This document shows positions 317-14,077 of a DNA stretch of 40,532 bases, piece by piece (the stretch's first letter is position 1; each line of letters opens with the position of its first letter). This DNA comes from an uncultured Pseudomonadota bacterium (GTDB taxonomy: Bacteria > Myxococcota_A > UBA796 > UBA9615). The translations under genes were made by a program, and so were the position numbers. The stretch lies in contig CALAGR010000370.1 of NCBI GenBank assembly GCA_937891735.1, positions 1 through 40,532 of the forward strand, read 5' to 3'. Below the pieces are notes generated by a model that was given only the letters and a program-made list of their open reading frames with translations, searched no databases and was not told the origin of the DNA.

Positions 317-1299
317 CCGCCCGGGGCCCCTCCGAAGCCCTCCCCTCCCCGCGCGCGCACCTCGCCGCCACGCTGCGGCTGGTGGACACGCTGGCGACGC
401 AGGCCGGCGGCTGGTCCGCGTGGCCCGGGGGCCAGATCGTGCGGGAGGTGCTGGATCGGCCCTTGCACCTGCCCGCCTCGGTGCGGCCCGACATGAACGG
501 GCTGAAGTACGACAGCTACATCACCCAAGGCCCCTCGGGCCCCGCCTGGGGGGTGACGTTCAACGACCGCTGGCAGGGCCGGGCGATCTGGCCGGTGCTC
601 GACGCGCTCGCCCGGGACCTGCCCGGCGACTACGACGTCGATCGGGTCCAGCGGCTGCGGCGCGCGGTGCCAGGCACCTCGGTGAACGTGGCGCTGGGCT
701 TCGACACACCGGGGCGGCCTCCGCGGCTCAAGGTCTATCTGCAGGAGGCGGACTGGCGGCAGGGCGTGCTGACGGTCGGGGCGTTCGCGGGGCTGTCCCC
801 GGATCTGCGCGGCGGATGCGTGCTCCCCGGGGTCCTGGCCCCCGAACGGGCCCTGGGGGTGCTGACGGTGGTGCTCCGACCCGATGGCAGCAGCGGGCTC
901 AAGGCCTACGTGGGGGGCCAGAGCGCGCGAGCCGTCGCGGAGGTGCTGCGCGGCGGGTGCCCCGAGGTGGACGCGCTCGCCGCCGGCATGGCAGCGGCGT
1001 GTCCGTCCAGCCCGGCCTGGCACTACCTGACGATCCGGCTGGAGGAGGGACAGGAGCCCCGCTACGCGCTCAACCGGATCTGGGAGCACGTGCGGGTGGG
1101 CTTCGGCGGGCCGACCGCGCTGGAGGAGGCCTGGAGCGAGGTGGGGGCGCTGTTCGAGGTGGCAGGGCGTGGGGCGTCCTTCGACGCGCTGCGGTCCCTC
1201 CGGAGCGAGCTGGGCGCGCTGCGGCTCGTGCCGACGGCGGCGGCGTACGAGGCAGGCGGGACCTCCGCCGACGTGTACCTGGCGGCCTGGCCAGCCTGA
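313..1299 (+). CDS. Unrecognised 328-aa protein with K-x-Y motifs (possible ABBA-type prenyltransferase)
   Basis: A soluble protein with no signal peptide or membrane segment. It starts at the ATG that overlaps the UppS-family stop codon. I do not recognise it with certainty. Visible features are alternating beta-strand-like segments with repeated Lys-x-Tyr motifs: GLKYDSY near residue 60, RLKVYLQE near 140, and GLKAYVGG near 195. A later strand reads HYLTIRLEEG near 240. Aromatic prenyltransferases of the ABBA/PT-barrel fold use Lys and Tyr residues on such strands to bind the prenyl diphosphate. The upstream cis-prenyltransferase could supply that diphosphate. The link is inference from motif style and neighbourhood only; an unrelated beta-rich protein is equally possible. 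The 3' end lies tail-to-tail with the end of the Hxs operon. Confidence 0.6.
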   Translation: MTARGPSEALPSPRAHLAATLRLVDTLATQAGGWSAWPGGQIVREVLDRPLHLPASVRPDMNGLKYDSYITQGPSGPAWGVTFNDRWQGRAIWPVLDALARDLPGDYDVDRVQRLRRAVPGTSVNVALGFDTPGRPPRLKVYLQEADWRQGVLTVGAFAGLSPDLRGGCVLPGVLAPERALGVLTVVLRPDGSSGLKAYVGGQSARAVAEVLRGGCPEVDALAAGMAAACPSSPAWHYLTIRLEEGQEPRYALNRIWEHVRVGFGGPTALEEAWSEVGALFEVAGRGASFDALRSLRSELGALRLVPTAAAYEAGGTSADVYLAAWPA

Positions 1300-1909
1300 T
1301 CTCAGGCGGCGGTTCAGCTCTCAACACGGACAGGCCGTCCGCGCCGTCTGCGCCCCGGCAGCCCACGAGCCAGCGCGTCGAAGGCTCATCCGCGGGCGCG
1401 AGGGCGACCTCGCCGATCCCCTGCACGAACCACTGATCCCAGGCCACCCCCTCGGGATCCGCGAGCCGCAGGGCCAGGGCCACGCGTTCGTGGGTCGCGC
1501 CGGACAACGCGAGCCGGGCAGGCCCGACGTACCGCAGGGTCACGGTGCGTGGATCGGTGGGGTGGGGGCGATGGGGCTCGCCCAGGCGAAGCTCCGCGGG
1601 AAGGACGAGGGGCACGTCGAACGCACCCGGGCGGCGATCCGGCGAGGGCTGCTCCACGAAGCGATCCTCGTGCAGCTCGAACATCTGCCTGTCCACGACC
1701 CGCCAGCCCTCGGCGGAGCGCACGTGCCGCGCGCGAATGCGAACCCGCACCCCATCGGCGCGCACCTGGACGTGGCTGCGCACCGCGAAGGTCTGCCCTT
1801 TCCGGTCCTGCCAGATCGCCCGGTCGGGCCGCTCGCCGCCATAGACGAACGCATCCAGCCGGGCCGAGGGGCCGCTGGGCTGCAGCGGGGTGAGCAGCAG
1901 GGCGCTCAC
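1070..1909 (-). CDS. Hypothetical soluble protein, last gene of the Hxs operon; C-terminal end uncertain
   Basis: It starts at a GTG that overlaps the stop of the upstream membrane-protein gene (GTGA at 1906-1909). The first 200 or so residues look like a real beta-rich protein: FVYGGERPDRAIWQDR near residue 28, VQVRADGVRVRIRARHVR, DQWFVQGIGEVAL near 175, then a region ending near GLSVLRAE. I do not recognise the family. From about position 1305 down to the in-frame stop at 1070 the translation becomes Arg/Pro/Ala-rich. There it lies entirely antisense to the coding region of the K-x-Y protein. The other two frames stop within 1300-1330, so either the gene carries a 75-residue low-complexity tail or a one-base indel hides the true end. 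Membership in the Hxs locus rests on coupling alone. Confidence 0.6.
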   Translation of the reverse strand: MSALLLTPLQPSGPSARLDAFVYGGERPDRAIWQDRKGQTFAVRSHVQVRADGVRVRIRARHVRSAEGWRVVDRQMFELHEDRFVEQPSPDRRPGAFDVPLVLPAELRLGEPHRPHPTDPRTVTLRYVGPARLALSGATHERVALALRLADPEGVAWDQWFVQGIGEVALAPADEPSTRWLVGCRGADGADGLSVLRAEPPPEIRLARPPGTRRRRSRLPRTPPPSARAAARPARSGGTAARRRTPHALPPRTAPPPRSRPPPARSARRSPPARAPRSG

Positions 1910-2583
1910 TCCGGCTCCCGCGCGGACCACCAGGCCATTCCGACCAGGCACACCACGGCCAGCTCCGCCGACTCGTCGGCCCGCCGCTCCCCGGCGAGCG
2001 CCCAGGTCCCGAGGGTAGCCACCAGCAGCGCCGCGACCCCTGCCCACAGGCCCCCGTCCAGGCGCGGCAGGGCGAGCCGATCCGCGATGCCACGCAGCGC
2101 CCGCGGCCAATGGTCACGGAGAGCCAGGAACAGCACCGCGGCCAGGGGGATCACCCGCCACAGCACCTCGATGACCGGCAGGTTGTGGGAGTTGAAGCTC
2201 CCGCTGTGCGAGCCGACCTCGGCCAGCGCCGCGGGGCTCCCGAAGCCCAGCCACATCTGCCCGTAGTCGACCTCTTCGAGCAGGAGCAGGCCCGCCCCCA
2301 CTGCGACCCAGGGCGCGCGGCGCTGCACCCCGAGGGTCCCCAGGGCGAGCAGCGCTCCGGCCGTGAGCGCCTCGATCACGCCCTCCTTGCCCGCCAGGAG
2401 CAGCTCGACCCCCCTCGGCAGGGGCGCCAGGAGCAGGGGCAACGCCGCCACCGCACCCAGCGCGACGTAGACGCTCTGGGGCATGGACCCGGTGCGGGCG
2501 CGCAGCCAGGACGTCAGGAGCACCGCCGATGCGAGGGCGATCACGAGGTGCTCGCCCATCCCCAGAGGGCTGACGATGGCCAT
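1906..2583 (-). CDS. Polytopic membrane protein of unknown function with EExxxGQ...NSHN signature
   Basis: A 225-aa protein of six or seven hydrophobic segments (roughly residues 10-27, 38-56, 68-86, 90-104, 138-160, 178-198 and possibly 203-218). Between segments four and five is LEEVDYGQMWLGFGSPAA followed by SFNSHN. It resembles an EE..wGQ..(G)..(P)...N.HN signature that I recall from uncharacterised bacterial polytopic membrane proteins. Its acidic and His residues near the membrane could bind metal or substrate, but that is inference. The ATG at 2583 overlaps the TGA of the preceding radical SAM gene by one base (TGATG), so it is co-translated with the peptide-modification genes. A role in export or membrane anchoring of the modified peptide is possible but not shown. 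Confidence 0.8.
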   Translation of the reverse strand: MAIVSPLGMGEHLVIALASAVLLTSWLRARTGSMPQSVYVALGAVAALPLLLAPLPRGVELLLAGKEGVIEALTAGALLALGTLGVQRRAPWVAVGAGLLLLEEVDYGQMWLGFGSPAALAEVGSHSGSFNSHNLPVIEVLWRVIPLAAVLFLALRDHWPRALRGIADRLALPRLDGGLWAGVAALLVATLGTWALAGERRADESAELAVVCLVGMAWWSAREPE

Positions 2584-3587
2584 CAGATCGGCCGGAGCCG
2601 GTCGGTGGGGAACCGCTCCGCGAACTCGGCGTACACCCCCGTACAGAGCGCCGACATCTCGCAGGACCCGCAGGCCGGCACGTGCGTGCGCTTGCGGTCC
2701 GGCCGCCAGTTGTAGAAGTCGTCGAACACGACCCGCCCCGGGTGGCGGGCCCACTCCGCGGTCACCCGCGGGTCCCAGTGCAGGTCGTTGGACAGCATGC
2801 GGTGCTCGCCAAGCACGCACATCGGCACGCCGAAGAACCGGATGATGGCGCTCCCGGCGCGGCCGGGCACGGTGGGCAGGACCCGGGCCAGGTCGTCGAG
2901 GGGAACGGCGAGCTCGGCGTAGCGATCCGCAGCGGCGCCCTCGGGGGTCGTGTTCGACACGATGATGAGCCCCACCCCGAGGGACGCCGCGAGGGCGACG
3001 GTGTCCGGCAGCTGCTCGAGGTTGCGCCGGGTGACGACCGTGTTCACCGCGGCCCGAAAGCCCGGAGCGATCTGCTTCGCCAGGGTGATGGCGCGAGTGA
3101 CGGTCTCGAAGCTGCCCTCCCTGCCCGCCAGGGCGTCGTGGGCCGCCGCGTCGGGGCCGTGCAGCGAGAACAGGGCTTCGTCCAGCAGCGGCACCGCCTG
3201 CTCCGCGAACGCGGGACGGGCCAGCATCGTGCCGATCGTGCCGACGGAGGTGCGCAGGCCCAGCTGGCGACACAGGCGCAGCAGATCGATGAACCGCGGG
3301 TGGATCGTCGGCTCGCCCCCCGTGAAGTGCACCGCCTGCACGCCCCGCCCGGCGTGGGTGCGGATCACCCGGGCCAGACGCCCCCAGGTCGCAGCAAACG
3401 GGTTGAAGGCCTGCATGCGGTGGTCTTCGGAGCAGAACACGCAGCGCTCGGGGCAGTGCCAGGTGACGTGCAGCTCGAGCCGGCGCATGACCTGTCCGTC
3501 GGGCCCGATCCAGGGGGTCGCCCCGGCCTCGGCGTCGGACTGGACGGGCTGGGCGGCCAAGGCGAGGCGATGTCGGGCGCGGTTCAC
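2583..3587 (-). CDS. Radical SAM protein with C-terminal auxiliary-cluster cysteines
   Basis: A 334-aa protein starting at a GTG that overlaps the previous stop (GTGA at 3584-3587). The radical SAM cluster motif CPERCVFC lies at residues 45-52 (Cys 45, 49 and 52 for the SAM-binding 4Fe-4S cluster). It is followed by HFTGGEPTIHPRF, the GGEP motif that contacts SAM. SLHGPDAAAHDALAG is the usual mid-barrel strand/loop. Near the end, GVPMC and CGSCEMSALCTGVY supply four cysteines suitable for an auxiliary 4Fe-4S cluster of SPASM or twitch type. The substrate is unknown. Position two genes after the HxsA precursor suggests it modifies that peptide or a side product. It could stand in for HxsC, but the MCSQPP-type motif I associate with HxsC is absent. 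Confidence 0.88.
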   Translation of the reverse strand: MNRARHRLALAAQPVQSDAEAGATPWIGPDGQVMRRLELHVTWHCPERCVFCSEDHRMQAFNPFAATWGRLARVIRTHAGRGVQAVHFTGGEPTIHPRFIDLLRLCRQLGLRTSVGTIGTMLARPAFAEQAVPLLDEALFSLHGPDAAAHDALAGREGSFETVTRAITLAKQIAPGFRAAVNTVVTRRNLEQLPDTVALAASLGVGLIIVSNTTPEGAAADRYAELAVPLDDLARVLPTVPGRAGSAIIRFFGVPMCVLGEHRMLSNDLHWDPRVTAEWARHPGRVVFDDFYNWRPDRKRTHVPACGSCEMSALCTGVYAEFAERFPTDRLRPI

Positions 3588-4621
3588 GGGCGCGCCTCGG
3601 GCGCCGACGTACGTGCCCGCTTCATCGCCGCCCAGGCCGGGTAGAGCCCCCGCACGAACCGGGACAGCTCCGCGTCGGCGGCCTCGGTGGACTCGATGAT
3701 CCGGGCCGGCAGCGCGCCCCGCAGGAGCCCCCACGTCCGCTCCGCCCCGCGGTCGAGCTCGTCCAGCGACGGCGGGTCGTCGAGCGTGCCCAGGCGGGTC
3801 TGGTCGCCCAGCTCTTCGAGCTTGCCCGACAGCACCACGTTCGAGGTGTGCACGGAGCCGTCCGAGTCCACGACGAGGCCGGTGTTGAAGAACGGCGTGG
3901 GAGCCCAGGTGAACAGGTTGCGCAGGTACAGGTACCGCCCAGCGCTCCAGGTGGACCTCACGTGGGCGGCCACCGCGTCGAACCCCCGCCGCAGATCCGC
4001 CAGCTGGTCGGGCCGCCACGGCAGGAAGTAGCCGGGCAGCAGGTTGAAGCGGGTCAGGCCCAGGCCGCGCAGGTGCTCGAAGTTCTCCGCGAACCGGCTC
4101 GCTGACGCAGGGGGGATGGTCTGGGTGATGACCACACGCCGCGTGGCCCGCAGGGCTGGCAGCAGCGTCATCAGGTGCTCGTAGCAGTCGGCGACGCCGG
4201 GGAGGGCGCGGCGGTAGCGCCGGTGGTCGGCCGGCGCGCCGTCCATGGAGATGGTCAGGATCGCCTTGGGCTCCCGCCGGACCCAGTCGAGCCACTCCTG
4301 GGTCAGACCCAGCCCGTTCGTGGACACGTACACCCGGCGGATCCCGGGGATCCGGGAGGCCTGCGCCACCACGGACCGCACGAGGTCCGGTACGAGCAGC
4401 GGTTCGCCGCCGAACACCTTGACGTCGCCGCCGCCGTAGCGCCCCGCGAACAGCTCCAGGGCAGCGCTCGTCTGGCCCTCGGTGAGGTCGGGGTGGCCGT
4501 CTTTTGCGGTCGGGCAGTAGGCACAGCGCAGGTCACACCGGCGCGTGACCGTCAGGATCAGCGTGCGCGCCGCGCGCCGCCTACCACTGTCCGTGGGAAC
4601 CGTGGGAGCCGTGGGACCCAT
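3584..4621 (-). CDS. Radical SAM protein lacking SPASM cysteines, overlaps hxsA
   Basis: A 345-aa protein from the ATG at 4621. The motif CDLRCAYC is at residues 29-36 and KVFGGEPLL near 73. The strand SMDGAPADHRRYRR near 140 fits a standard radical SAM partial barrel. No C-terminal cysteine cluster is present, although VDSDGSVHTSNVV resembles the linker before a SPASM domain. It may therefore act with only the SAM cluster. The start is uncertain. The frame is open through the HxsA repeat, and an earlier ATG at 4666 would add a Gly-Pro-Thr-rich stretch that is simply the repeat DNA read in another frame. Even from 4621 it overlaps hxsA by 41 nt, so expression is probably coupled to the precursor. 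Likely substrate: HxsA (inference). Confidence 0.86.
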   Translation of the reverse strand: MGPTAPTVPTDSGRRRAARTLILTVTRRCDLRCAYCPTAKDGHPDLTEGQTSAALELFAGRYGGGDVKVFGGEPLLVPDLVRSVVAQASRIPGIRRVYVSTNGLGLTQEWLDWVRREPKAILTISMDGAPADHRRYRRALPGVADCYEHLMTLLPALRATRRVVITQTIPPASASRFAENFEHLRGLGLTRFNLLPGYFLPWRPDQLADLRRGFDAVAAHVRSTWSAGRYLYLRNLFTWAPTPFFNTGLVVDSDGSVHTSNVVLSGKLEELGDQTRLGTLDDPPSLDELDRGAERTWGLLRGALPARIIESTEAADAELSRFVRGLYPAWAAMKRARTSAPEARP

Positions 4622-4868
4622 GAGAGCCGTGAGACCCGTGAGACCCGTGGGACCCGTGGGACCCATGAGAGCCGTGAGACCCGTGGGAGCAGTGCTGCGC
4701 GAGGATCCAGCCGGAGTTGTCGGGATCGTTCAGAACGCTGGACGCGCGGTCGCGCAGATCTTCCGAAGCAGCCTCATCCACCTGCTTGCTCTCTTCGAGC
4801 TGCAAGAACTGGCTGGGCTTGCGGCCGGGCTTCGGGAGCCCGTTGCCATCTCCATTGTCGAACGCCAT
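4581..4868 (-). CDS. hxsA: His-Xaa-Ser repeat precursor peptide, HxsA-like
   Basis: A 95-aa RiPP-type precursor. Residues 1-58 form a hydrophilic leader with FLQLEESKQVDEAASEDL near 21-38 and GWILAQ just before the core. The core, residues 59-95, is HCS, then ten perfect HGS units, then HGQW. This places twelve histidines at exact three-residue spacing (59 to 92). That matches the His-Xaa-Ser repeat protein HxsA, the presumed substrate of HxsB/HxsC/HxsD. The first unit has Cys instead of Gly, giving the only cysteine in the peptide. The ATG has a clear AGGGAG ribosome-binding site and lies 8 nt after the hxsB stop. Export and final structure are unknown. Identity rests on the repeat pattern plus the adjacent hxsB. 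Confidence 0.88.
   Translation of the reverse strand: MAFDNGDGNGLPKPGRKPSQFLQLEESKQVDEAASEDLRDRASSVLNDPDNSGWILAQHCSHGSHGSHGSHGSHGSHGSHGSHGSHGSHGSHGQW
4590..4694 (-). repeat. 9-nt tandem repeat encoding the HGS core of HxsA
   Basis: About eleven and a half units of a 9-nt repeat encoding His-Gly-Ser lie in the 3' end of hxsA. A 27-nt block spanning three codon triplets occurs identically at 4611-4637 and 4656-4682, 45 nt apart. This suggests that the array grew by duplication of a multi-unit segment. Two CAT histidine codons among the CAC codons mark the duplicated blocks. Confidence 0.95.
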
Positions 4869-4876
4869 GCCGCTCC

Positions 4877-6463
4877 CTACTGCTCCACGATCGGCAACGT
4901 GCCGCGACCGGGCCTGATTGGGGCCGTGGTCTGCTCCGGAGCATCACCCACGTCCTGATTTGCGTCCAGACCTTCTTCCGGGTCTCGCGGTCGGTTGATC
5001 GTCCACCGCCGGAAGATCCGCTCCACGCTGCCGTCCACATCATCGCCCAGCCGCGACAGCAGCATGCGCGCCACGCCCATGTACTCCTTGCACTTCGGAG
5101 TGCTGGGCCGCTGTCCGAACAGGTCCCCTTGAAGCATGTAGTTGTGCAGGGGGCGCACGCCGCAGAACGGCGCGTTCCAGCAGTCGCTGCACATGGGCAG
5201 GGCGTCCAGGTAGGACGCGACCGCGATGGCCTTGACCGTGGGGTGGTTGGCGGCCTGCTCGAACGTGGTGTCGTCCACGTTGCCCAGGACGAACAGGTCG
5301 TCCCCCATGGACGCGATCATGCGCCCCTCGTCCGAGGCGTGAATGCTGCCGTCGTACATGTAGGCGAGCTGACCGGTGCCGGAGCCCACCGGCGAGCGGA
5401 TGTCCACGAAGTTGGGGTCGTCCGCGGTCAGCATCTTCATCAACAGGATGGACGCCGTGCCTTCGGCGATCTCGACGCCGCGCTGGTTGAGCTCGAGGAT
5501 GTAGTTCAAGCAGCGCTCGTAGAACTCCAGGTACTCCTCGGGCGTGTAGCCGACGCGCTTCCAGGTGCTCATGGCGAAGCCGAACGGGTTCAGCGGCCGC
5601 AGGTGGATGTTGCGGATGCCGAGCTCGACGTACAGGTCGATGACCTCCTGCCAGTGGTCCAGCGTGGCGCGCGTCGTGGTCATCAGCGCATCGACGTGCC
5701 ACAGCCGGGGGTCGCGTCCCAGCTCGATGTAGCGCCGATTGAAGTACTGGACCCACTTGAGGACGTCGACGTATGCGCCGCCGCCCTTCTTCCAGGGCCG
5801 GTTGACGTCGTGCACGACCGGCGGCCCGTCCAGGCTCGTGCAGATCATCACGTTGTTGGCCAGCAGCCACTCGGCCTTCGGCACGTCCATCGTCGTCATG
5901 TTGGTGACGAGGGAGTGCTCGAGCCGCTTCTGCTCGTAGCGGTTCTTCTCCCGGCTGTACTCGACGATGAACTTGAGGACCTCGAAGTTGATGGTCGGCT
6001 CGCCCCCCTGGAACTCGATGTTCAGATATGGCGACGGCGTCTTCATGAGGTGGTCGACGACCTTCTTGGCCGTCTCCATCGACATGTCGGTGTCCACCCG
6101 ATCCATCTCGGTCCGGGACGCGTGGCAGTAGGTGCAGTGCTGGTTGCACCGCAGGGTCGTGATGATGATCCCCAGGTGCGGCCCCTGCCCCAGGAAGCGC
6201 TTCTTGCGGCGAAGGCGGGTCGCCAGACCGTCGATGTCCAGATCCTTCTGCAGGAAGCCCTTGGCCTGGAGCACTGCGAATCGGGGGTGCTCGTCGTCGA
6301 TCCGGCCGGCCAGCAGATCCGAGAACTCCGGGTCCGACAGCAGCTCCCACTCACCGACGTCGTTGGTGATGATCGTGCGCTCGCCGATGCGCCCGAAGCG
6401 GAACCACGCCAGCGTGTCGGTGGCGACGGTGCGCCGCGGCAGGACGACGGTGTGGTGGGTCAC
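4877..6463 (-). CDS. hxsB: Radical SAM/SPASM peptide maturase HxsB
   Basis: A 528-aa protein starting at GTG, which overlaps the stop of the small HxsD-like gene (GTGA). Residues 20-50 (FRFGRIGERTIITNDVGEWE) match the N-terminal signature of HxsB-type maturases and may form a leader-binding region. The radical SAM motif CNQHCTYC is at residues 106-113 and FQGGEPTINFEV near 150. The SPASM-type C-terminal cysteines are in MCSDCWNAPFCG and further on in STPKCKEYM. These would hold the auxiliary cluster that in related enzymes binds the peptide substrate. It lies 8 nt upstream of hxsA. The family is named for His-Xaa-Ser repeat substrates; the chemistry on HGS repeats is unknown here. Confidence 0.93.
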   Translation of the reverse strand: MTHHTVVLPRRTVATDTLAWFRFGRIGERTIITNDVGEWELLSDPEFSDLLAGRIDDEHPRFAVLQAKGFLQKDLDIDGLATRLRRKKRFLGQGPHLGIIITTLRCNQHCTYCHASRTEMDRVDTDMSMETAKKVVDHLMKTPSPYLNIEFQGGEPTINFEVLKFIVEYSREKNRYEQKRLEHSLVTNMTTMDVPKAEWLLANNVMICTSLDGPPVVHDVNRPWKKGGGAYVDVLKWVQYFNRRYIELGRDPRLWHVDALMTTTRATLDHWQEVIDLYVELGIRNIHLRPLNPFGFAMSTWKRVGYTPEEYLEFYERCLNYILELNQRGVEIAEGTASILLMKMLTADDPNFVDIRSPVGSGTGQLAYMYDGSIHASDEGRMIASMGDDLFVLGNVDDTTFEQAANHPTVKAIAVASYLDALPMCSDCWNAPFCGVRPLHNYMLQGDLFGQRPSTPKCKEYMGVARMLLSRLGDDVDGSVERIFRRWTINRPRDPEEGLDANQDVGDAPEQTTAPIRPGRGTLPIVEQ

Positions 6464-6705
6464 GCCTGCGCCCCCCGGGCCAGCACGGCCGTCTGGAACA
6501 GGGCGAAGTTGGCCAGCTCGTGCTCCAGCACCTCGACGTGCGCCGGCGCGACCTCGGACACGGCCACCTCGACGACGTCGTCCTGCACCGTCAGGGTCAG
6601 GGCAGCGAAGGACGCGAACGCCGCTACGGCCTCCTCGATCGCCTCGCGGCGGTACAGGCTCAGGTCGAAGCGGATCCGCGCGTCGGGCTCAGGCACCAGG
6701 ACCAC
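6460..6705 (-). CDS. Small HxsD-like protein (short copy)
   Basis: An 81-aa protein from GTG 6705 (GTG 6696 is an alternative), overlapping the upstream gene by 17 nt and hxsB by 4 nt. The upstream part of the same open frame is antisense-like and is excluded. It contains FDLSLYRREAIEEAV near residue 13 and ends with HELANFALFQTAV. This is the same plan as the longer neighbour: a beta strand, a Tyr-containing helix, paired strands, then a helix opening with E-[LF]-A-N. This is the architecture of HxsD, the small partner of HxsB. It may be the minimal HxsD, acting as a peptide-binding or scaffold subunit. Assignment is by gene order and motif resemblance; start codon choice is moderately sure. 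Confidence 0.72.
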   Translation of the reverse strand: MVLVPEPDARIRFDLSLYRREAIEEAVAAFASFAALTLTVQDDVVEVAVSEVAPAHVEVLEHELANFALFQTAVLARGAQA

Positions 6706-7129
6706 CAGCGGTGTCCCACGGGACCTCGATCTCCAGCGGGTCGTCGTCGAGTTCCTCGGCATCGAGCTCGGCGAGCAGCGCATCGATGCTGACGCGCGCC
6801 TCCCCCCCGAAGAACGCACGCGCCAGCGTGTACTCCCGAAGCGACGCCGTCGACGCGCTGATCTGCATGCGCATGACCTGGTTGAGCAGCTCGTTGGCGA
6901 ACTCGCCCGCCAGGCCGATCAGGTCCTGGGAGCTGGCGGCCTCCCGGCTGCGCAGGCGCACCCGGATCTGGCCATCGCCGGGCCGGGTCAGGAACAGCCA
7001 CGCCCGATCCACGAACAGGTAGGCCGCGCCATACACGGCGGCCTTCGGATAGATCTCCTCGTGCAGGTCGAACGCGACGCTGCGCTCCCCCAGCTCGAAG
7101 CCCAGCTCGACCTCCTCGGCGTCGCTCAC
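6689..7129 (-). CDS. hxsD: HxsD-like protein (long copy)
   Basis: A 146-aa protein from GTG 7129, whose GTGA overlaps the stop of the Tat-protein gene; an upstream in-frame ATG at 7159 lies inside that gene. The centre reads VAFDLHEEIYPKAAVYGAAY near residue 20, FVDRAWLFL, then GEFANELLNQVMRMQIS near 80 and LREYTLARAFF. This pattern (IYP, a VDR aromatic strand, EFxNELL.Q..R) matches HxsD-type proteins that accompany HxsB. A 35-residue acidic C-terminal tail follows. It could recognise the HxsA leader or cap the radical SAM complex, but HxsD has no established biochemical role. Two HxsD-like genes in tandem are unusual and suggest duplication with specialisation. Confidence 0.75.
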   Translation of the reverse strand: MSDAEEVELGFELGERSVAFDLHEEIYPKAAVYGAAYLFVDRAWLFLTRPGDGQIRVRLRSREAASSQDLIGLAGEFANELLNQVMRMQISASTASLREYTLARAFFGGEARVSIDALLAELDAEELDDDPLEIEVPWDTAGGPGA

Positions 7130-7680
7130 TGCAGCACCCCTTGGGTCGCGCCCAGCCACTGCTCGATGCGCTCCTCGTGCGTCAACAGCCCGGCCAGGGA
7201 GACCTGCGCCTCGTTGACCCGCGCGATGTTCGCCACCCGAAGAAGCACCCGGCCGAGGACCTCGTCCGATGCGTCGTCACCGCGTCCACCGTTCATGAGC
7301 AGGAAGTCCAGCTCGTCGGTGCTCGCGATGCCCGCCGGACAGCCGCCGTTTCGACAGACATGCACCCGGGCCAGCGCCCCGTCGGTGGCGCGCTCGAGCG
7401 TCAGGAGCATCGCCCCGCGGTCGGCTGCGCGTAGATCCCGGAACGTCCAGCCCATGCCCAGCTCCGAGCCCAGGGCGTGGGGCGCGAGCAGAGCCACGGG
7501 GCCCAGGCCCGCGTCGTCGCCCAACAGCGCCGGCGGGGTGTCCTCCGGGAGGTGCTCCGCTGCCGGGGCCGCGGCCATGGGGGCCGGCCCCTCCGCACGC
7601 GCGGGGGCTGCTCCGACGAGCGGCACCGCCACTGCGGCGAGCCCGAACTGCAGCACCTTGCGTCGTTCCTGGTCGACCAT
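7126..7680 (-). CDS. Tat-exported protein of the Hxs locus, function unknown
   Basis: A 184-aa protein with a clear twin-arginine signal: QERRKVLQFG at residues 4-13, then a hydrophobic run and a likely cleavage after APARA near residue 29. The mature part is about 155 residues with no membrane segment. It contains one CRNGGCPAG cysteine pair near residue 110, which could form a disulfide or hold a metal, and a C-terminal helix with LLTHEERIEQWL. Tat export implies folding or cofactor loading in the cytoplasm before transport. The start has a good AGGAG site, 11 nt after the previous stop. I do not recognise the family. Context suggests that it carries, processes or partners the HxsA product in the periplasm (inference). 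Confidence 0.85.
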   Translation of the reverse strand: MVDQERRKVLQFGLAAVAVPLVGAAPARAEGPAPMAAAPAAEHLPEDTPPALLGDDAGLGPVALLAPHALGSELGMGWTFRDLRAADRGAMLLTLERATDGALARVHVCRNGGCPAGIASTDELDFLLMNGGRGDDASDEVLGRVLLRVANIARVNEAQVSLAGLLTHEERIEQWLGATQGVLQ

Positions 7681-7691
7681 GACGACTCCTG

Positions 7692-8852
7692 TCAGTCAGC
7701 AAAGGGATCGGGGCGCCCGATCGCGTCCACCCGGTCCTCACCGATCTGCGGCAATTCTCCGAGCGCTGGCAGCATAGCCCATGCCGGATCCTGTGCCAGG
7801 GCGCTGGAAGGCACTGCGAGAGGACGGAGGCGGGCGCGCCCTCGCTGCTCCAGGTCGGGCTGCTCGGTTCGGGAGTGGCGCCCCGCCCGGGCGCGGATGC
7901 GCTCCAACAGCGCCGGCTCCGGCTCTCGACGCAAGACCGCCCGGATCGCGGGGAGCGGATCGGCGAACACCGGCGACAGCTCCCGCTCGTCGAAGGAGCG
8001 CGCCATCGAGTACATGCCTGCGCAGATCGGGTCGAAGTCGCACGCCAGACAGGCCTGCCCCTTGCCGTGCAGGAACTCCCTTTGATGCACGAACCCCTTC
8101 TGGTCCAGGAAGCGAATGCACCGCTCCTCTTCCTTGACGATCTTGCGGGTCTCGGTGGACGCCCACGGGTATCGGGGCATGAAACAGAGCGGAACGCGCT
8201 CGGCCCGGAAGCTGCGCCCCGAGGCGTGCAGGAAGTCCATCGCCCGCTCCAGGGAGACCTGGAACTCGTAGTGACGGCCGATGCAGTCGGGGTTCTCCTC
8301 GGCGCGGTTGCCGTCGGGATCCATGTTGTTCCAGACGAAGTGCCGGATCCACGGGAAGCGGCCGCAGATCCACCGCACCGTCTCGTCGAGATGGTCGGCG
8401 TTGTACGCGCAGATCACGGTGTTGATGTCGCACGTGATCCCCATCTCGGGGACGAGCTCCAGGCACGCCACCAGGGTCTGCCACGCGTTCCGGTAGCGGG
8501 TGATGAAGTCGTGCACCTCGCGCCGACTGCTGTGCAGGCTGACGTGGATGTGTCCGAGCCCTGCATCCACGCAGCGCTGGAAGAACGCCCGGTCGGCCAG
8601 CAGCTGACCGTTGGTGATCATCCGGCTGTGCAATCCGAGCCCCGCCGCGTGCTCCAGCGCCGCAAACAGCAGCGGAGACAGGCTGGGCTCCCCCCCGGTG
8701 AGGATCACCCCGTCGAACTGCAGCTCGGCCAGACGGTCCAGCTCGCTGCGCATCTCCCGGTCCGTCAGGTCCACCCCCGTGGGCGGGTTCGAGCAGAACC
8801 GACATCCCTGGTAGCAGTCGCGGGTGAGCTGGAGGTATCCGAGGTTCGCCAT
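7692..8852 (-). CDS. Radical SAM protein with C-terminal CxxC-type cluster
   Basis: A 386-aa protein; its ATG overlaps the previous TGA (ATGA at 8849-8852). CYQGCRFC is at residues 13-20, ILTGGEPSLSPLL near 55, and the strand HVSLHSSRREVHDF near 107 is typical of the partial barrel. Near residue 300 CLACDFDPICAGMY gives a SPASM/twitch-like set of cysteines. The final 80 residues are Arg/Pro/Glu-rich without a recognisable fold. It is the third gene of the operon, upstream of the Tat gene. Reaction unknown. The short N-terminus with no leader-binding domain suggests that it may depend on a partner such as an HxsD-like protein to find its peptide. Confidence 0.88.
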   Translation of the reverse strand: MANLGYLQLTRDCYQGCRFCSNPPTGVDLTDREMRSELDRLAELQFDGVILTGGEPSLSPLLFAALEHAAGLGLHSRMITNGQLLADRAFFQRCVDAGLGHIHVSLHSSRREVHDFITRYRNAWQTLVACLELVPEMGITCDINTVICAYNADHLDETVRWICGRFPWIRHFVWNNMDPDGNRAEENPDCIGRHYEFQVSLERAMDFLHASGRSFRAERVPLCFMPRYPWASTETRKIVKEEERCIRFLDQKGFVHQREFLHGKGQACLACDFDPICAGMYSMARSFDERELSPVFADPLPAIRAVLRREPEPALLERIRARAGRHSRTEQPDLEQRGRARLRPLAVPSSALAQDPAWAMLPALGELPQIGEDRVDAIGRPDPFAD

Positions 8853-10693
8853 CAGTCCAGGACCGCCAGACGCCGCCGCTGACGCTCCTGGTCCTTCTTG
8901 CGGGCCAGCGTGGCCAGGGGGTCCTCGGGCGACTCCACCGTCGCGCCGAAGCCGGGCAGGGAGGGGGCCGGGGCCTCGGTCGGCCGACCATCCGCCATCC
9001 GCGGCCGGGGCTCGGGCCGCAGGACCCCGAGCTGGGCGGCCGCAGACTCGGCCCAGGCGCCCTGGAGCGGCTGGGCCAGCACGAACCCCCGCGCCCGCAC
9101 CATGTTGACGTGCACGCCGTCGCAGCGCGCATCGACCGCGCACCCGGCGCAGCGCGTGCTCTTGGCCCGGTAGCGCGACGTGACGTGCCATCGGGCCAGC
9201 TCGTCGATGGCGAGTCGCCCGGTGGTGCTGTCGAACACGGCGACGGGGAGCCGCAGGGGCTCCTCGACGAGCCGGGACCCCGGACAAAGACACGCCGGAA
9301 GTCCGCTGACCCGAATCGGAAGATCCAGCGCAACGAAGAACGAAGCCGGATCCTCCAGATCCGACTCCAGCGCTTCTTCCATTCGCTCCCAACTGGGCTG
9401 GCGCAGCGTGACGACATCGAGCAGCTCCCCCACCACGTCACGGTGCGCGAGCAGCCAGCCCGCGCTTTGACGTGTCAGGAGGATCTCCACCTGCCGGGTC
9501 GGTTTCTGGCCCGGGTTGCCCAGGACGATGTCCAATTCCTCGGCCCTGCTCACCTCGATCTGCACCGCGTCTGCCAGATCCGCGTCGTGCAGACCCTGCA
9601 GGTCGTCCAGGGAGATCAGCAGCGGCCCACCGACCCGCGCCGCCAGCTCCGACGCCTCCGACGCTCCCGGCAAGCGCACCGCGACGCACCCGCCCATGGC
9701 CCATCCGTCGGGGCCCGACAGACGCGGGAGCCAGTCCAGATCCCGGCCGACATCGATCACGCGGACCGCGCGCTCCCGGAGCCCCGAGATCGCGTCGTCC
9801 ATCGAGTCGCAGAACGGAGCGATGAAGCAATGCCGGCAGCGGTCTGCGTCCCGACAATCCAGCGCCGCCCCGCCGTCCAGGTAGCGACGCACCTGGTACC
9901 GGCGCCCGTTCACCTCGTCCAGCATCTTGTGGGGGTCCTGGATCAGGTCCTCCAGGCCCTCCAGCACCGGCAGCGGGAAGCGGTTCGTCCAGATCGTGAA
10001 GCCGGGGTGCCGGTTCAGCCGGAACACCTTGCGCAGCCGCTCCGCGTGCTCGACGGGGTCGTAGAAGAGCTGGTCCCGGTGCTCGAACGCGGCGGCCTGG
10101 GGGATCACCGACAGCAGATCGAACTCCTGCACCCCAAGCGAGATCGCCAGCTCGACGATCTTGTCGATGACCTCGACGTTCTGGGCGTTGATCACGACGT
10201 CCACGTTCACGATCAGCTCCCGCCGACGCACCGCCCGGACCATGCCCTTGATGAGGCGCGCGAACGAGCCTTCGTGCTGGGTCAGTCGGTCGTGCAACGC
10301 GGCGGTGTGACCGTGCAGGCTGAACGTGATCTCGCCCAGCCCCGCGGCCACCGCGGCGTCGTAGAAGCCCCGGTCCGCGAACATCCACCCGTTGGTCACC
10401 GTCTGCACCCGGCCGTAGCCCGCCGCCTTGCCGTAGGCCACCAGGTCGTGAAACCGCGGGTGCAGGGAGGCCTCGCCGCCCGAGATGATGACCTTGTCGG
10501 CCCGGAGCTCGCGACGCCCGCGGTTCAGCTCCGCGCACACGTCATCAAAGGGGAGATGCAGGTTCCGAGGCGTGTCCGAGTCCAGGCAGAACAGGCATCG
10601 GCTGTTGCAGGCCGTGACCGCGCGCACCCAGTGTTTGCGCTGGTTTGCGACCCTCTCGCGCTCCAGCATGTCCTCGATCCGGGGATGCGCCAT
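8852..10693 (-). CDS. Large radical SAM protein with two SPASM-like cysteine clusters
   Basis: A 613-aa protein with ATGA overlaps at both ends. CNSRCLFC is at residues 29-36, then IISGGEASLHPRF near 75 (GGEA instead of GGEP) and TFSLHGHTAALHDR near 127. A first cysteine cluster, CRDADRCRHCFIAPFC, lies near residue 280. The remaining 300 residues are not needed for a normal radical SAM fold. They contain strand-helix segments, CLCPGSR near 500, and a second cluster CAGCAVDARCDGVHV near 540 that resembles another SPASM end. The C-terminal half may be a degenerate second radical SAM module, as in the neighbouring gene. The last 60 residues are charged and disordered. Substrate unknown; a role in HxsA maturation is inferred from the operon. 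Confidence 0.86.
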   Translation of the reverse strand: MAHPRIEDMLERERVANQRKHWVRAVTACNSRCLFCLDSDTPRNLHLPFDDVCAELNRGRRELRADKVIISGGEASLHPRFHDLVAYGKAAGYGRVQTVTNGWMFADRGFYDAAVAAGLGEITFSLHGHTAALHDRLTQHEGSFARLIKGMVRAVRRRELIVNVDVVINAQNVEVIDKIVELAISLGVQEFDLLSVIPQAAAFEHRDQLFYDPVEHAERLRKVFRLNRHPGFTIWTNRFPLPVLEGLEDLIQDPHKMLDEVNGRRYQVRRYLDGGAALDCRDADRCRHCFIAPFCDSMDDAISGLRERAVRVIDVGRDLDWLPRLSGPDGWAMGGCVAVRLPGASEASELAARVGGPLLISLDDLQGLHDADLADAVQIEVSRAEELDIVLGNPGQKPTRQVEILLTRQSAGWLLAHRDVVGELLDVVTLRQPSWERMEEALESDLEDPASFFVALDLPIRVSGLPACLCPGSRLVEEPLRLPVAVFDSTTGRLAIDELARWHVTSRYRAKSTRCAGCAVDARCDGVHVNMVRARGFVLAQPLQGAWAESAAAQLGVLRPEPRPRMADGRPTEAPAPSLPGFGATVESPEDPLATLARKKDQERQRRRLAVLD

Positions 10694-12345
10694 CAGGCCA
10701 CCGCCTCCAGCGCGTCCACCGACCAGCCCGTGGCGATCCCCGGGCACTCCGTGGCCAGCGCGCACCGCGGCGCCTCGGGGCAGGGCTCCCAGGTCCCGAG
10801 GCGGTCGCTGCCGGACGGGGGGCTGCCCCCGAGCCCGGGTCCATCGTCGCTCCACCCGCCGGCTCCAGCCACGGACGCGTGCCGGTCCCCGCGCAGGCAC
10901 GCGGGCAGCAGGGGCTGCAAGGCGCCCCGCACGAGGCCCTCCGGAAGCCGGCCTGCGGCGTCGCAGAGCGCACGGAGCGAGCTGCCCGCCGGCGAGAGTC
11001 GGAACGCGGGGGTCCCGGGGAGCCCTGAGGGGCCCCACGCGCCGGCCCACCGCTCCAGGTCCGCCCCGTCGTGAAGGACCCCGTAGGCGTGCGCTGAGAC
11101 CCCGCGGCGCGCGAGCCGCTCCAACGCCTCCTGGGACTCCTCGAAGGCGCCCACGCGGCCCACGTGCCCGTCATGGGCGGCGGGATCCGGTCCGTAGAAG
11201 GCCCCGTGCACGGCCCCCAGCCGGCGCACCCGATGCAGGTCGTCGTCGGACCAGGCCGCCAGCGGCGACACGTCCCCGCACACCTCCACGGCGTCCACGT
11301 CCAGACGGGCGATCTCCCGGAGCAGCTCCCGGGCCGCGGGATGCCACAAGGACCCGGCGGAGGCCAGGCGGAGCACCTCGGGCCGCCGACGTGCCGCGCG
11401 CACCAGCCTCACCCGGGCGTCGCGCCGTGGTTCGGCCCGGTCGACCTGCGCGTCCGCGTCTGCGCAGGCGGCGCACGAGATCGGCGACGGCGCCTGAAGC
11501 ACGACCCGGACGACGGCAGCGGTGCGATCCGAGGCCAGCAGCTCACTCGGTCCGAACAGATCGACGTACGCCTGCGACACGCCGGAGCAGCCAGGCTCGC
11601 ACCCCGCACAGCGAACGGCGTGCTGGGGGCCCGGCGCGAGGTAGCCGAGCAGCTCGCGGGGCAGCGCGCAGGAGGGCACACCGGCGATCTCGACGGTCAG
11701 CCCCAGCCGAAGGGCGGAGCGCACGGCCTCCGTCAGCGGCCCACCGATCAGCCCCACCCGGGGCAGCAGCGCGACGCGGTCATCGGGCGGGACCTCCTCG
11801 ATACCCAGGGGCCGGAACCGCACCTCCCGCGCGCCCAGATGGGCCACCGCAGCCACGGTCTCCGCGAGCAGCGGCAGGCCCGGCCGGGTCAGCACGCAAT
11901 CGACCACCACCTGCAGGCCGACCCCGGTGCCCGCGCGAATCGCCCGCAGCGCGCGGCGGCCGTGACCCTTCGTGCCCACGACCCAGTCGTGCATCGATGA
12001 TCGCGCACCGAGGATGGGGATGCGCAGCGCGTGCAGGCCGGCCACACGCAGCGCGCGACAGGGCCCGGCGTCGCTCAGCGCGAGGCCGTCGGTCTCCAGC
12101 AAGAGGCGGGCCCCCGACGGAGTCGCGGCGGCCGCAGCCTCGACGATCTCGAGCAGATCCGGCCTCAAGGTCGGCTCTGCCCCCGCCAGGGCGACCTCCC
12201 GCAGGCCCCCGCAGGCCGCAGACGAGGCCACCAACGCCGGGATCTCGCCGACCTGGATCGGCGCGATCACGGGCGGACCCGCCAGCCGGCCGGCTCGTCG
12301 CTGGTGTCCGACCTGGAGCCGGCACACGTTCAAGATCGCGGACAT
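10693..12345 (-). CDS. Tandem degenerate radical SAM-like protein (no CxxxCxxC)
   Basis: A 550-aa protein, first gene of the operon. The N-terminus has VCRLQVGHQ where CxxxCxxC would be, so the three cluster ligands are missing. The downstream pattern is retained: ALAGAEPTLRPDLLEIVEAA near residue 55 in place of GGEP, LRIPILGARSSMHDWVVG near 110, and a SPASM-like CAGCEPGCSGVSQAY near 245. A second module follows, again with only CAAC near 300, a strand GAFYGPDPAAHDGHVG near 410 and a terminal CPEAPRCALATECPG. It appears to be two decayed radical SAM barrels in one chain, probably non-catalytic toward SAM and possibly a peptide-binding or scaffold subunit. Alternatively it could bind an unusual cluster. 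It has no ribosome-binding site; see the -10 element just upstream. Confidence 0.8.
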   Translation of the reverse strand: MSAILNVCRLQVGHQRRAGRLAGPPVIAPIQVGEIPALVASSAACGGLREVALAGAEPTLRPDLLEIVEAAAAATPSGARLLLETDGLALSDAGPCRALRVAGLHALRIPILGARSSMHDWVVGTKGHGRRALRAIRAGTGVGLQVVVDCVLTRPGLPLLAETVAAVAHLGAREVRFRPLGIEEVPPDDRVALLPRVGLIGGPLTEAVRSALRLGLTVEIAGVPSCALPRELLGYLAPGPQHAVRCAGCEPGCSGVSQAYVDLFGPSELLASDRTAAVVRVVLQAPSPISCAACADADAQVDRAEPRRDARVRLVRAARRRPEVLRLASAGSLWHPAARELLREIARLDVDAVEVCGDVSPLAAWSDDDLHRVRRLGAVHGAFYGPDPAAHDGHVGRVGAFEESQEALERLARRGVSAHAYGVLHDGADLERWAGAWGPSGLPGTPAFRLSPAGSSLRALCDAAGRLPEGLVRGALQPLLPACLRGDRHASVAGAGGWSDDGPGLGGSPPSGSDRLGTWEPCPEAPRCALATECPGIATGWSVDALEAVA

Positions 12346-12412: not shown

Positions 12413-13636
12413 ATGGCTCGGGCTCCCCTCCCCAGCGGTTTCCTGGCGCTCCCCTCCCCCGAAGACCGGACTGTGTCCAAGCTGGGTCGCAAGGTGCGCC
12501 TGTTGGCCGCCCGGACGCTGCTGACGGCGCCGCTGCCCGGCCTGTCGCCCGCCATGATCCGCACGATGCGGGCCGTTCGGGGCTTCGTCACGGACGCGCT
12601 CGCCCAGTCCCCGGCCCAGACCCTGGCCGCGATCGGCAGCCCCGACGTCCTGCCGTCCCTGCTCGCTTTGGAGTCGCGGGCGCTGCCCCCCTCCACCTGC
12701 CTGCAGGCGGTCCCCCACCTGCTCGCGCGCCTGAACGATCTGGGACCGGAGGCCCCGCTGCTGTGGGAGCTCCCGGCGCGCACCCTGTCGGAGTCGGACC
12801 GAGGACCCCTGTTCGCTTTCGAGCCCCCCGCCCGGGCGCTGCTGTTCGCTCGAGGCCAGATCGAGGTCGAGCACGCCGATGGGCGCCACAGCGACCTCGC
12901 CGATCACACGGAGGCCCCGCGATCCTGGGCCCTGGGACCCGGCATCGCGCTGTGCACCGAGGACACCAACCCCCTCGCCGACCTCGAGGACCACCCGGAC
13001 AAGCAGGGCAACGCCCGCGACCTGGGGGGGCGTCCCGTCCAGGAGTGGCTCGAGGCGTTGACCGCGGCCCTGCAGATCGTCGCGCTGCTTCCCAGCTGGA
13101 CGAGGGAGCTCAGGACCGCCGGTGCGCGCCTCGTTCCGGTAGGGTTCGAGGCGGAGCGGCACCTGTCGGCGAGCTACCGGGAAGCACCCGGCCTTGTGTA
13201 TCTGACGCTGCACCCGAGCCCGCTGACCCTGGCGGAGGCCATCGTGCACGAGACCCAGCACGGCAAGCTCAATCTGCTGACCTGGCTCGACCCGGTGCTC
13301 CTCAACGGCCGCACGACGTGGACCACCTCACCGGTCCGACCCGATCTGCGTCCGCTGATGGGGGTCTTTCTTGCGGCCCACGCCTTCGTGCCTGTCGCGG
13401 CGCTGCACTGCGCCATGGAGTCCACCGGGCATCCCATCGCGGCGACGCCCGAATTCGCCCGCCGCCGCGCCGAGGTCCTCGACGGAAACACCCGCGCCCT
13501 CGCGATCCTGGAGGACCTCGCGTCCCCCACCCGGGTCGGCCGACGGGCGCTGGACGACCTGCGGTCACTGCACGCGGCGACCGGTGATCCCCACCGCGAA
13601 GGACCCTCGGATCCGGACGCGTTGCCGCCGGGTTGA
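12413..13636 (+). CDS. HExxH-type putative RiPP modification protein
   Basis: A 407-aa soluble protein, divergent from the Hxs operon. The key segment is LAEAIVHETQHGKLNLL: His279, Glu280 and His283 form the HExxH motif, followed by KLNLL and a downstream Asp (LTWLDPVL). This is the pattern of the HEXXH-motif putative peptide-modification family, which is usually found beside radical SAM peptide maturases. Fused radical SAM-HExxH proteins are reported to perform alpha-ketoglutarate-dependent beta-hydroxylation besides cyclophane formation, so hydroxylation of the HxsA core is one possibility. A metalloprotease role is less likely given the family. The first 250 residues are helical and carry a few conserved-looking Trp/Asp positions, such as ARDLGGRPVQEW. 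No signal peptide. Assignment by motif and context. Confidence 0.8.
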   Translation: MARAPLPSGFLALPSPEDRTVSKLGRKVRLLAARTLLTAPLPGLSPAMIRTMRAVRGFVTDALAQSPAQTLAAIGSPDVLPSLLALESRALPPSTCLQAVPHLLARLNDLGPEAPLLWELPARTLSESDRGPLFAFEPPARALLFARGQIEVEHADGRHSDLADHTEAPRSWALGPGIALCTEDTNPLADLEDHPDKQGNARDLGGRPVQEWLEALTAALQIVALLPSWTRELRTAGARLVPVGFEAERHLSASYREAPGLVYLTLHPSPLTLAEAIVHETQHGKLNLLTWLDPVLLNGRTTWTTSPVRPDLRPLMGVFLAAHAFVPVAALHCAMESTGHPIAATPEFARRRAEVLDGNTRALAILEDLASPTRVGRRALDDLRSLHAATGDPHREGPSDPDALPPG

Positions 13637-13723: not shown

Positions 13724-14077
13724 ATGAGCAGCGACAAGCGCGCGTCGGAACGAAAGCCACTGAGGCTCGAGCTGAACTACCGCCATGCCGAGGGGGGCAA
13801 CTTCCTCTTCGAGTACAGCTCCAACATCAGCCACGGGGGCATCTTCATCGAGACGGACCACCCGCTGCCCATCGGGGCGCTGCTGGCGATCCGGTTCTCG
13901 CCGCCCAAGGGTGGCAAGGAGCTCGAGGTGGAAGGCACCGTGACCTGGGTCAACCCGTGGCACGACAACGAGGACAACCCGAACCCCGGCATGGGGATCC
14001 GTTGGGACCTCGAAGAAGGACAGCACGACATCATCGCGTCGATCGTCAAGGCGATCGCGATCCTGCCGGACGCCTGA
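13724..14077 (+). CDS. PilZ-domain protein (myxococcal TIGR02266-type)
   Basis: A 117-aa single-domain protein. RASERKPLRLELNYRH at residues 6-21 supplies the arginine-containing N-terminal strand. SNISHGGIFIET near residue 37 is the [ND]-x-S-x-x-G core used by PilZ domains to bind cyclic di-GMP, and GMGIRWDLEEG near 92 closes the barrel. The long PilZ-like variant with GGIFI and a WV...PGMGI ending is a paralogous group abundant in myxobacteria. The first Arg pair is atypical (RKPLR instead of RxxxR in exact form), so ligand binding is not certain. It is monocistronic, with its own promoter, and converges on rimO with only 6 nt between stops. Confidence 0.88.
   Translation: MSSDKRASERKPLRLELNYRHAEGGNFLFEYSSNISHGGIFIETDHPLPIGALLAIRFSPPKGGKELEVEGTVTWVNPWHDNEDNPNPGMGIRWDLEEGQHDIIASIVKAIAILPDA

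Follow-up and report, generated by a model that had tools for sequence, protein, structure and literature searches.

The 40,532-nucleotide stretch of contig CALAGR010000370.1 studied here, the whole of which is called the window, carries a peptide-modification cassette of the His-Xaa-Ser (Hxs) type. A single precursor, HxsA4, with its HGS repeats and Gly-Gln-Trp end, would be the common target of layered action by HxsB, four further radical S-adenosylmethionine (SAM) enzymes, a pseudo-radical-SAM protein and an oxygenase of the HExxH family. We assign this reading, drawn from the genes and their conservation, a probability of roughly 60%. The new point is a link between the precursor's ending and two of the radical SAM enzymes: precursors that end in HGQW go together with the pair that we call rC1 and rC2 (rD, rE, rF and psSAM, the last for the pseudo-radical-SAM protein, are likewise names coined in this analysis). 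The genome assembly to which the window belongs, labelled G000, is 95.2% complete and consists of 542 contigs.

The link was counted in 121 stretches, namely the window and 120 HxsA4 places among the matches listed, with G097:C155, G323:C253 and weaker places left out and with rC1 counted from 250 bits. All 30 stretches that hold rC1 have a precursor ending in HGQW, and all 30 also hold rC2. Where rC1 is absent from the stretch, the ending is HGSW in 79 cases, HGQW in four, and cut off or otherwise not scorable in eight (seven precursors truncated where their contig stops, and L184, which has another ending). A smaller set of 101 stretches gave 29 HGQW endings with rC1 and, without it, 64 HGSW, three HGQW and five unscored; the rC1 of L039 was assigned by hand in this set, its fused frame scoring higher for rC2, and by score in the larger one. 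In a separate scan with the rC1 alignment as query and one genome per species, which yielded 47 loci in genomes overlapping those of the 121 stretches, 37 of 37 readable precursors end in HGQW. Both kinds of precursor occur in three genomes (HGQW and HGSW, respectively, at L067 and L179 in G149, at L172 and L075 in G187, and at L076 and L165 in G115), with rC1 only at the HGQW one. Across 377 genomes of the phylum, rC1 (E 1e-40) and rC2 (E 1e-60) are found in 44 each, 42 of them in common; rC2 stands without rC1 in G208 and G251, in both at a contig end, and rC1 without rC2 in G002 (171 bits) and G008 (165 bits), both weak matches.

Three of the four HGQW precursors without rC1 are explained by contig ends. 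In the genome of L053 (G208), a different contig (L220) breaks off with rC2, just short of the place expected for rC1; the contig of L150 (G283) measures 5.8 kb, and rC1 is present in that genome at the border of a different contig; in L241 (G260) the start of rC1 is truncated by the contig end (98 bits). The fourth, L052, is weighed below.

In a tree of 54 HxsB rows, all HGQW rows, with three unreadable ones, form one clade of 35 rows with support of 100/100, so that the HGQW cassette appears to be one inherited cassette and not the product of many independent events. The terminal Gln could then be a passenger of a single-ancestor cassette, all enzymes working on the HGS repeats and rC1 and rC2 leaving the Gln-Trp end untouched, an explanation that suits the long stem of the clade. 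It also suits the finding that no clear separation of full rC1/rC2 from HGQW, or the reverse, turned up, for which reason inheritance and function are indistinguishable here. We nevertheless regard a passenger Gln as rather unlikely: across the precursors of the rC1 scan the ending is constant in 37 of 37 while the repeat tracts range from 4 units (L137) to 49 and the leaders differ, the 79 other precursors are just as uniform in ending in HGSW, and both kinds persist together in three genomes.

The cassette is made up of the following genes.

12413 to 13636, plus strand: aKG-HExxH-type peptide beta-hydroxylase family protein, motif H279ETQH283; TIGR04267, 85.4 bits (cut-off 40)
10693 to 12345, minus strand: psSAM, pseudo-radical-SAM protein without CxxxCxxC, C-terminal Cys set retained; PF04055, 41.4 bits
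8852 to 10693, minus strand: radical SAM enzyme rE, CNSRCLFC and two further Cys sets; PF04055
7692 to 8852, minus strand: radical SAM enzyme rD, CYQGCRFC; its top NCBIfam model is HxsC, at 85 bits against a cut-off of 267.9
7126 to 7680, minus strand: twin-arginine translocation (Tat)-signal-like protein, RR in 20 of 20 aligned rows; without family
6689 to 7129, minus strand: HxsD; TIGR03976, 51.4 bits (cut-off 50)
6460 to 6705, minus strand: HxsD-like protein, start codon uncertain; NF038315, 50.5 bits (cut-off 41)
4877 to 6463, minus strand: HxsB radical SAM maturase, 528 amino acids; TIGR03978, 484.7 bits (cut-off 370)
4581 to 4868, minus strand: hxsA4 precursor, 95 residues, repeat tract HCS(HGS)10HGQW at 4584 to 4694; NF038313, 90.3 bits (cut-off 55)
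3584 to 4621 or 4666, minus strand: radical SAM enzyme rC1, CDLRCAYC, without auxiliary Cys set; begins within the repeat tract, out of frame with it
2583 to 3587, minus strand: radical SAM enzyme rC2, CPERCVFC, one auxiliary Cys set; joined to rC1 as a single frame in L039/L097
1906 to 2583, minus strand: predicted membrane protein; relative only in the sister species among the loci compared
1070 to 1909, minus strand: unknown protein; relative only in the sister species among the loci compared

The initial annotation had recognized hxsB beside an HGS-repeat precursor and HxsD-like genes, and all four (HxsB, HxsA4, HxsD and the HxsD-like protein) score above their model cut-offs, HxsD narrowly; the outcome for the 528-residue protein against the HxsB model had been set beforehand as decisive. 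The four further radical SAM proteins, which had been described as carrying intact CxxxCxxC motifs, do so, the protein at 10693–12345 lacks the motif as predicted, and all five pass the PF04055 cut-off. The operon occupies the minus strand from 12345 to 1070, in the order psSAM, rE, rD, Tat protein, HxsD, HxsD-like protein, HxsB, HxsA4, rC1, rC2, predicted membrane protein and unknown protein, with gaps of -1, -1, 11, -4, -17, -4, 8, -41, -4, -1 and -4 (the start of the HxsD-like gene being uncertain); by these measured distances the proposed stop/start overlaps are real. The extent first given, 2583 to 12345, covers the core, but the operon goes on to 1070, and the aKG-HExxH gene, divergent from it and 67 bases away, is part of the cassette. 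That protein passes the TIGR04267 cut-off and has the HExxH motif, as HETQH, its hydroxylase activity being predicted only. Outside the cassette, a TIGR02266 family protein follows the HExxH gene at 13724–14077 (70.3 bits, cut-off 68.7), and positions 1–1299 hold the end of an undecaprenyl-diphosphate-synthase-like gene (PF01255, 75.9 bits), then an unknown protein; both adjoin the cassette in the sister species too (L097, JAGSHC010000015.1; NCBI lineage Myxococcota, by which we place the host of the window in the myxobacterial phylum).

The survey of neighbourhoods found the extra radical SAM genes repeatedly linked to hxsA and hxsB, as the initial annotation required. Judged by the labels that submitters gave and by NCBI lineage, 24 of the 47 rC1 loci are myxococcal, the rest being mostly loosely labelled metagenome-assembled genomes (MAGs); contigs L118 and L124, titled as a Klebsiella pneumoniae MAG, hold the cassette in myxococcal order, and their label is probably wrong. 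In the 35 loci with at least 4 kb upstream of rC1, hxsB, hxsD and the Tat gene are each present in 34, the precursor in 33 (that of L115 was missed by the repeat filter) and the HxsD-like gene in 27, and rC2 follows in 36 of the 39 loci with at least 1.2 kb downstream. In the sister species (L039/L097) rC1 and rC2 form a single frame of 678 amino acids. The two possible starts of rC1 in the window, 4621 and 4666, both fall within the repeat tract but out of frame with it; rC1 consequently opens with a repeat-derived stretch, and similar N-termini occur in L043, L045, L050 and L056.

Cysteines were counted in the relatives from the rC1 scan and in the window. HxsB retains CxxxCxxC and five more Cys in 36 of 36 rows. 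CxxxCxxC is likewise present in 36 of 36 rows of rC1, which has no auxiliary set and one late column that is Cys in 31 of 36 rows, the window not among them, and in 39 of 39 rows of rC2, which has four more Cys in 38 of 38 rows with letters. CxxxCxxC and four more Cys are kept in rD (19 of 19 rows with letters) and in rE (21 of 21), the latter with a second four-Cys set in its C-terminal half (20 of 20 with letters). For HxsB, rC1, rC2, rD, rE and rF (an HxsC4-like radical SAM protein of other loci), no aligned row with letters at that position has lost the motif, and HExxH stands in 16 of 16 aligned rows of the aKG-HExxH protein, window included. In psSAM, where the window lacks CxxxCxxC, C226, C246, C249 and C253 are kept in 8 of 8 rows; two of these, L125 and L128, carry an intact CxxxCxxC, so that psSAM has an active form. 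The suggestion, from L097, L105, L106 and L113, that rF is absent wherever psSAM is present was dropped, L055/L110 holding both. Stops within the rE homologues of HGSW genomes, considered as a feature of the gene, were also dropped, the matched span being open in seven loci (L210–L215 and L219).

The loss of the motif in psSAM, and an rC1 broken across several frames in L137, are what a decaying or chance assemblage would offer, duplicated radical SAM genes having gathered beside hxsB without a common pathway. Against this stand orthologues in the same order at dozens of loci, overlapping frames and a motif intact throughout the aligned radical SAM rows; conserved synteny already refutes such an assemblage, which we hold to be highly improbable.

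The precursor consists of a conserved leader, an HCS unit, the HGS tract and the HGQW end. The ten HGS units of the window vary at synonymous third positions only, which argues that the repeat is maintained at the protein level. Beyond its first unit, HCS, the repeat has no Cys; in L100, L138 and L140 the first two units have none, and L111 starts within the tract. One contig, present as two records (L055/L110), holds two precursors and two Tat proteins, one Tat gene lying between the precursors, as if the pair had been duplicated. HxsA4 scores above its cut-off in at least 115 of the 377 genomes, and rE is found in 80 (E 1e-80). The order rE-rD-hxsD-hxsDr-hxsB is the same in an HGSW-type genome (G092, L218). 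Since rE, rD, hxsD, the HxsD-like gene and hxsB occur in HGSW genomes also, the HGS repeat accompanies this common core, and rC1 and rC2 accompany the GQW end. Eight HGSW precursors (L059–L061, L065, L069, L073, L077 and L078) have no window-like partner gene in the stretch, and all eight genomes have HxsB elsewhere.

The founding account of the Hxs system is reportedly that of Haft and Basu. The system comprises HxsA, HxsB, HxsC and HxsD (TIGR03979, TIGR03978, TIGR03977 and TIGR03976), and the window resembles it in its HxsB and HxsD, both above cut-off, and in its His-Xaa-Ser repeat precursor. It differs in that this precursor passes HxsA4 and not HxsA (20.9 bits against 121.65), in the addition of four other radical SAM enzymes, psSAM, the HExxH enzyme and the Tat protein, and in lacking an HxsC above cut-off. 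The absence of HxsC, first noted for the operon, extends to the entire assembly, where the best TIGR03977 score is 91.3; according to a passage in PMC9062424, His-Xaa-Ser peptides putatively depend on HxsB and HxsC. HxsA4 and its companion HxsC4 (NF038313, NF038332) are already named in NCBIfam, and the window precursor passes the former. In an HGSW-type locus, L062, a gene scoring above the HxsC4 cut-off (630.6 bits) lies beside an HxsA4 precursor, whereas the window's genome has none above the cut-off of 500 (best 88.9 at the locus and 117.3 elsewhere), its precursor ends in HGQW, and rC1 and rC2 are added. The 117.3-bit match is an HxsC4-like radical SAM gene with the motif CNNRCTFC on a separate contig (G000 C109, L095 9024–9911). 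Systems that pair a radical SAM enzyme with an aKG-HExxH protein (ChlB/ChlH and fused forms) likewise combine a radical SAM maturase with a protein of the HExxH family in a single peptide pathway; here, however, HxsB is not a cyclophane maturase by model, scoring 36.1 against 370 and 52.7 against 310 with the cyclophane (triceptide) maturase models FxsB/GrrM (TIGR04269 and TIGR04261), and the cassette has five radical SAM enzymes. Openly licensed literature yielded no characterised Hxs pathway or demonstrated Hxs chemistry and no paper on HxsA4 or HxsC4, and a term search of a 2025 survey of recognition elements (PMC12710340) found no mention of Hxs in its text. The earlier suggestion of a new Hxs subtype therefore needs qualifying: the precursor subtype already has a name, but neither the enzyme set nor the HGQW link was found described in that literature. 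The different, layered chemistry then put forward as a possibility would be consistent with the gene content.

From the parts, packing, order and conservation of the cassette, the anatomy of the precursor and the rule for its ending, all read from sequence, we infer the following steps. HxsB, together with HxsD and the HxsD-like protein, would bind the conserved leader, and the HGS units would be modified one after another by HxsB with rD and rE, which HGSW genomes also have. The change that we favour is a bond or an oxidation at the beta-carbon of Ser (or His), because the repeat has no Cys past its first unit and the nearest solved relatives of HxsB are 5wgg (75.7 bits), which we take to be a thioether-forming maturase, and sulfatase-maturating enzymes (51 bits). 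The HxS spacing would accommodate a His-to-Ser bond like those of three-residue cyclophanes; HxsB, as said, fails the cyclophane models. The HExxH enzyme, to which 22nu (27.4 bits) and ChlH 8s5f (E 0.0087) come closest among solved chains, would hydroxylate the repeat, as a first guess at the His beta-carbon, though a role at His or at the Gln end may be envisaged. Because rC1 and rC2 come and go together and with the HGQW ending, they would probably act as one unit on the C-terminal Gly-Gln-Trp. psSAM would be a non-catalytic partner in binding or electron transfer, and the Tat protein would take up or carry the product outside the cytoplasm. More tentatively, and short of an even chance, the peptide would be zoned, its repeats modified by HxsB, rD, rE and the HExxH enzyme and a separate Gly-Gln-Trp cap by a two-part enzyme of rC1 (without an auxiliary Cys set) and rC2 (with one), GQW or GSW serving as a code word for the finishing enzymes.

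It could instead be that some of the radical SAM genes, for example rE or psSAM, serve the Tat-signal protein or another partner, the peptide being one of two substrates. The Tat gene is as constant as hxsB (34 of 35 loci), it was duplicated together with the precursor in L055/L110, and rE has a second Cys-rich half. The Tat protein has no repeat, however, and beyond one Cys shared by 90% or more of 20 rows and a handful of isolated residues it offers no conserved stretch resembling a maturation site; we think a second substrate unlikely. No NCBIfam or Pfam model matches this protein.

Several observations weigh against layered action on HxsA4 or against the link on which it draws. G008, with its weak rC1 relative, has a precursor (L235) that ends in HGSW, and L052 (G203, 83% complete) ends in HGQW with neither rC1 nor rC2 found in the genome. 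The ending and the pair may have descended jointly from one ancient event, kept since, with neither acting on the other. In 3 of the 39 loci (L136, L137 and L139) rC2 was not found downstream of rC1, and L143, an rC1 fragment with no Hxs genes within 10 kb upstream, is a real counter-example. By the thresholds used, rE is present in 20, rD in 16 and the HExxH gene in 15 of the 47 rC1 loci, many contigs ending early, and rF, downstream of rC2 in 26 of the 36 loci with at least 2.6 kb downstream, is not at the window. For HxsD, the AlphaFold2 (AF2) model has a beta-alpha-beta-beta-alpha topology whose top Foldseek rows belong to RNA polymerases (K chains), the VIA rows being generic; a PqqD-like recognition-element fold is not among the matches listed, which does not rule one out. 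Structure comparison of the Tat protein gave no fold. HxsD of the cassette type, in the window (6689–7129) and aligned relatives, has a conserved C-terminal tail, LLAELDAEEL..D.LEI.VPW.

Nature supplies this repeat peptide in two versions, HGQW accompanied by rC1/rC2 and HGSW lacking them, which coexist in three genomes, and the action of the pair should therefore be readable by the swap of a single residue. Five radical SAM enzymes with intact Cys motifs and an HExxH-family oxygenase probably converge on one substrate of 95 residues, and, if the peptide is zoned as proposed, few pathways acting on one ribosomal peptide would be as rich in radical SAM enzymes.

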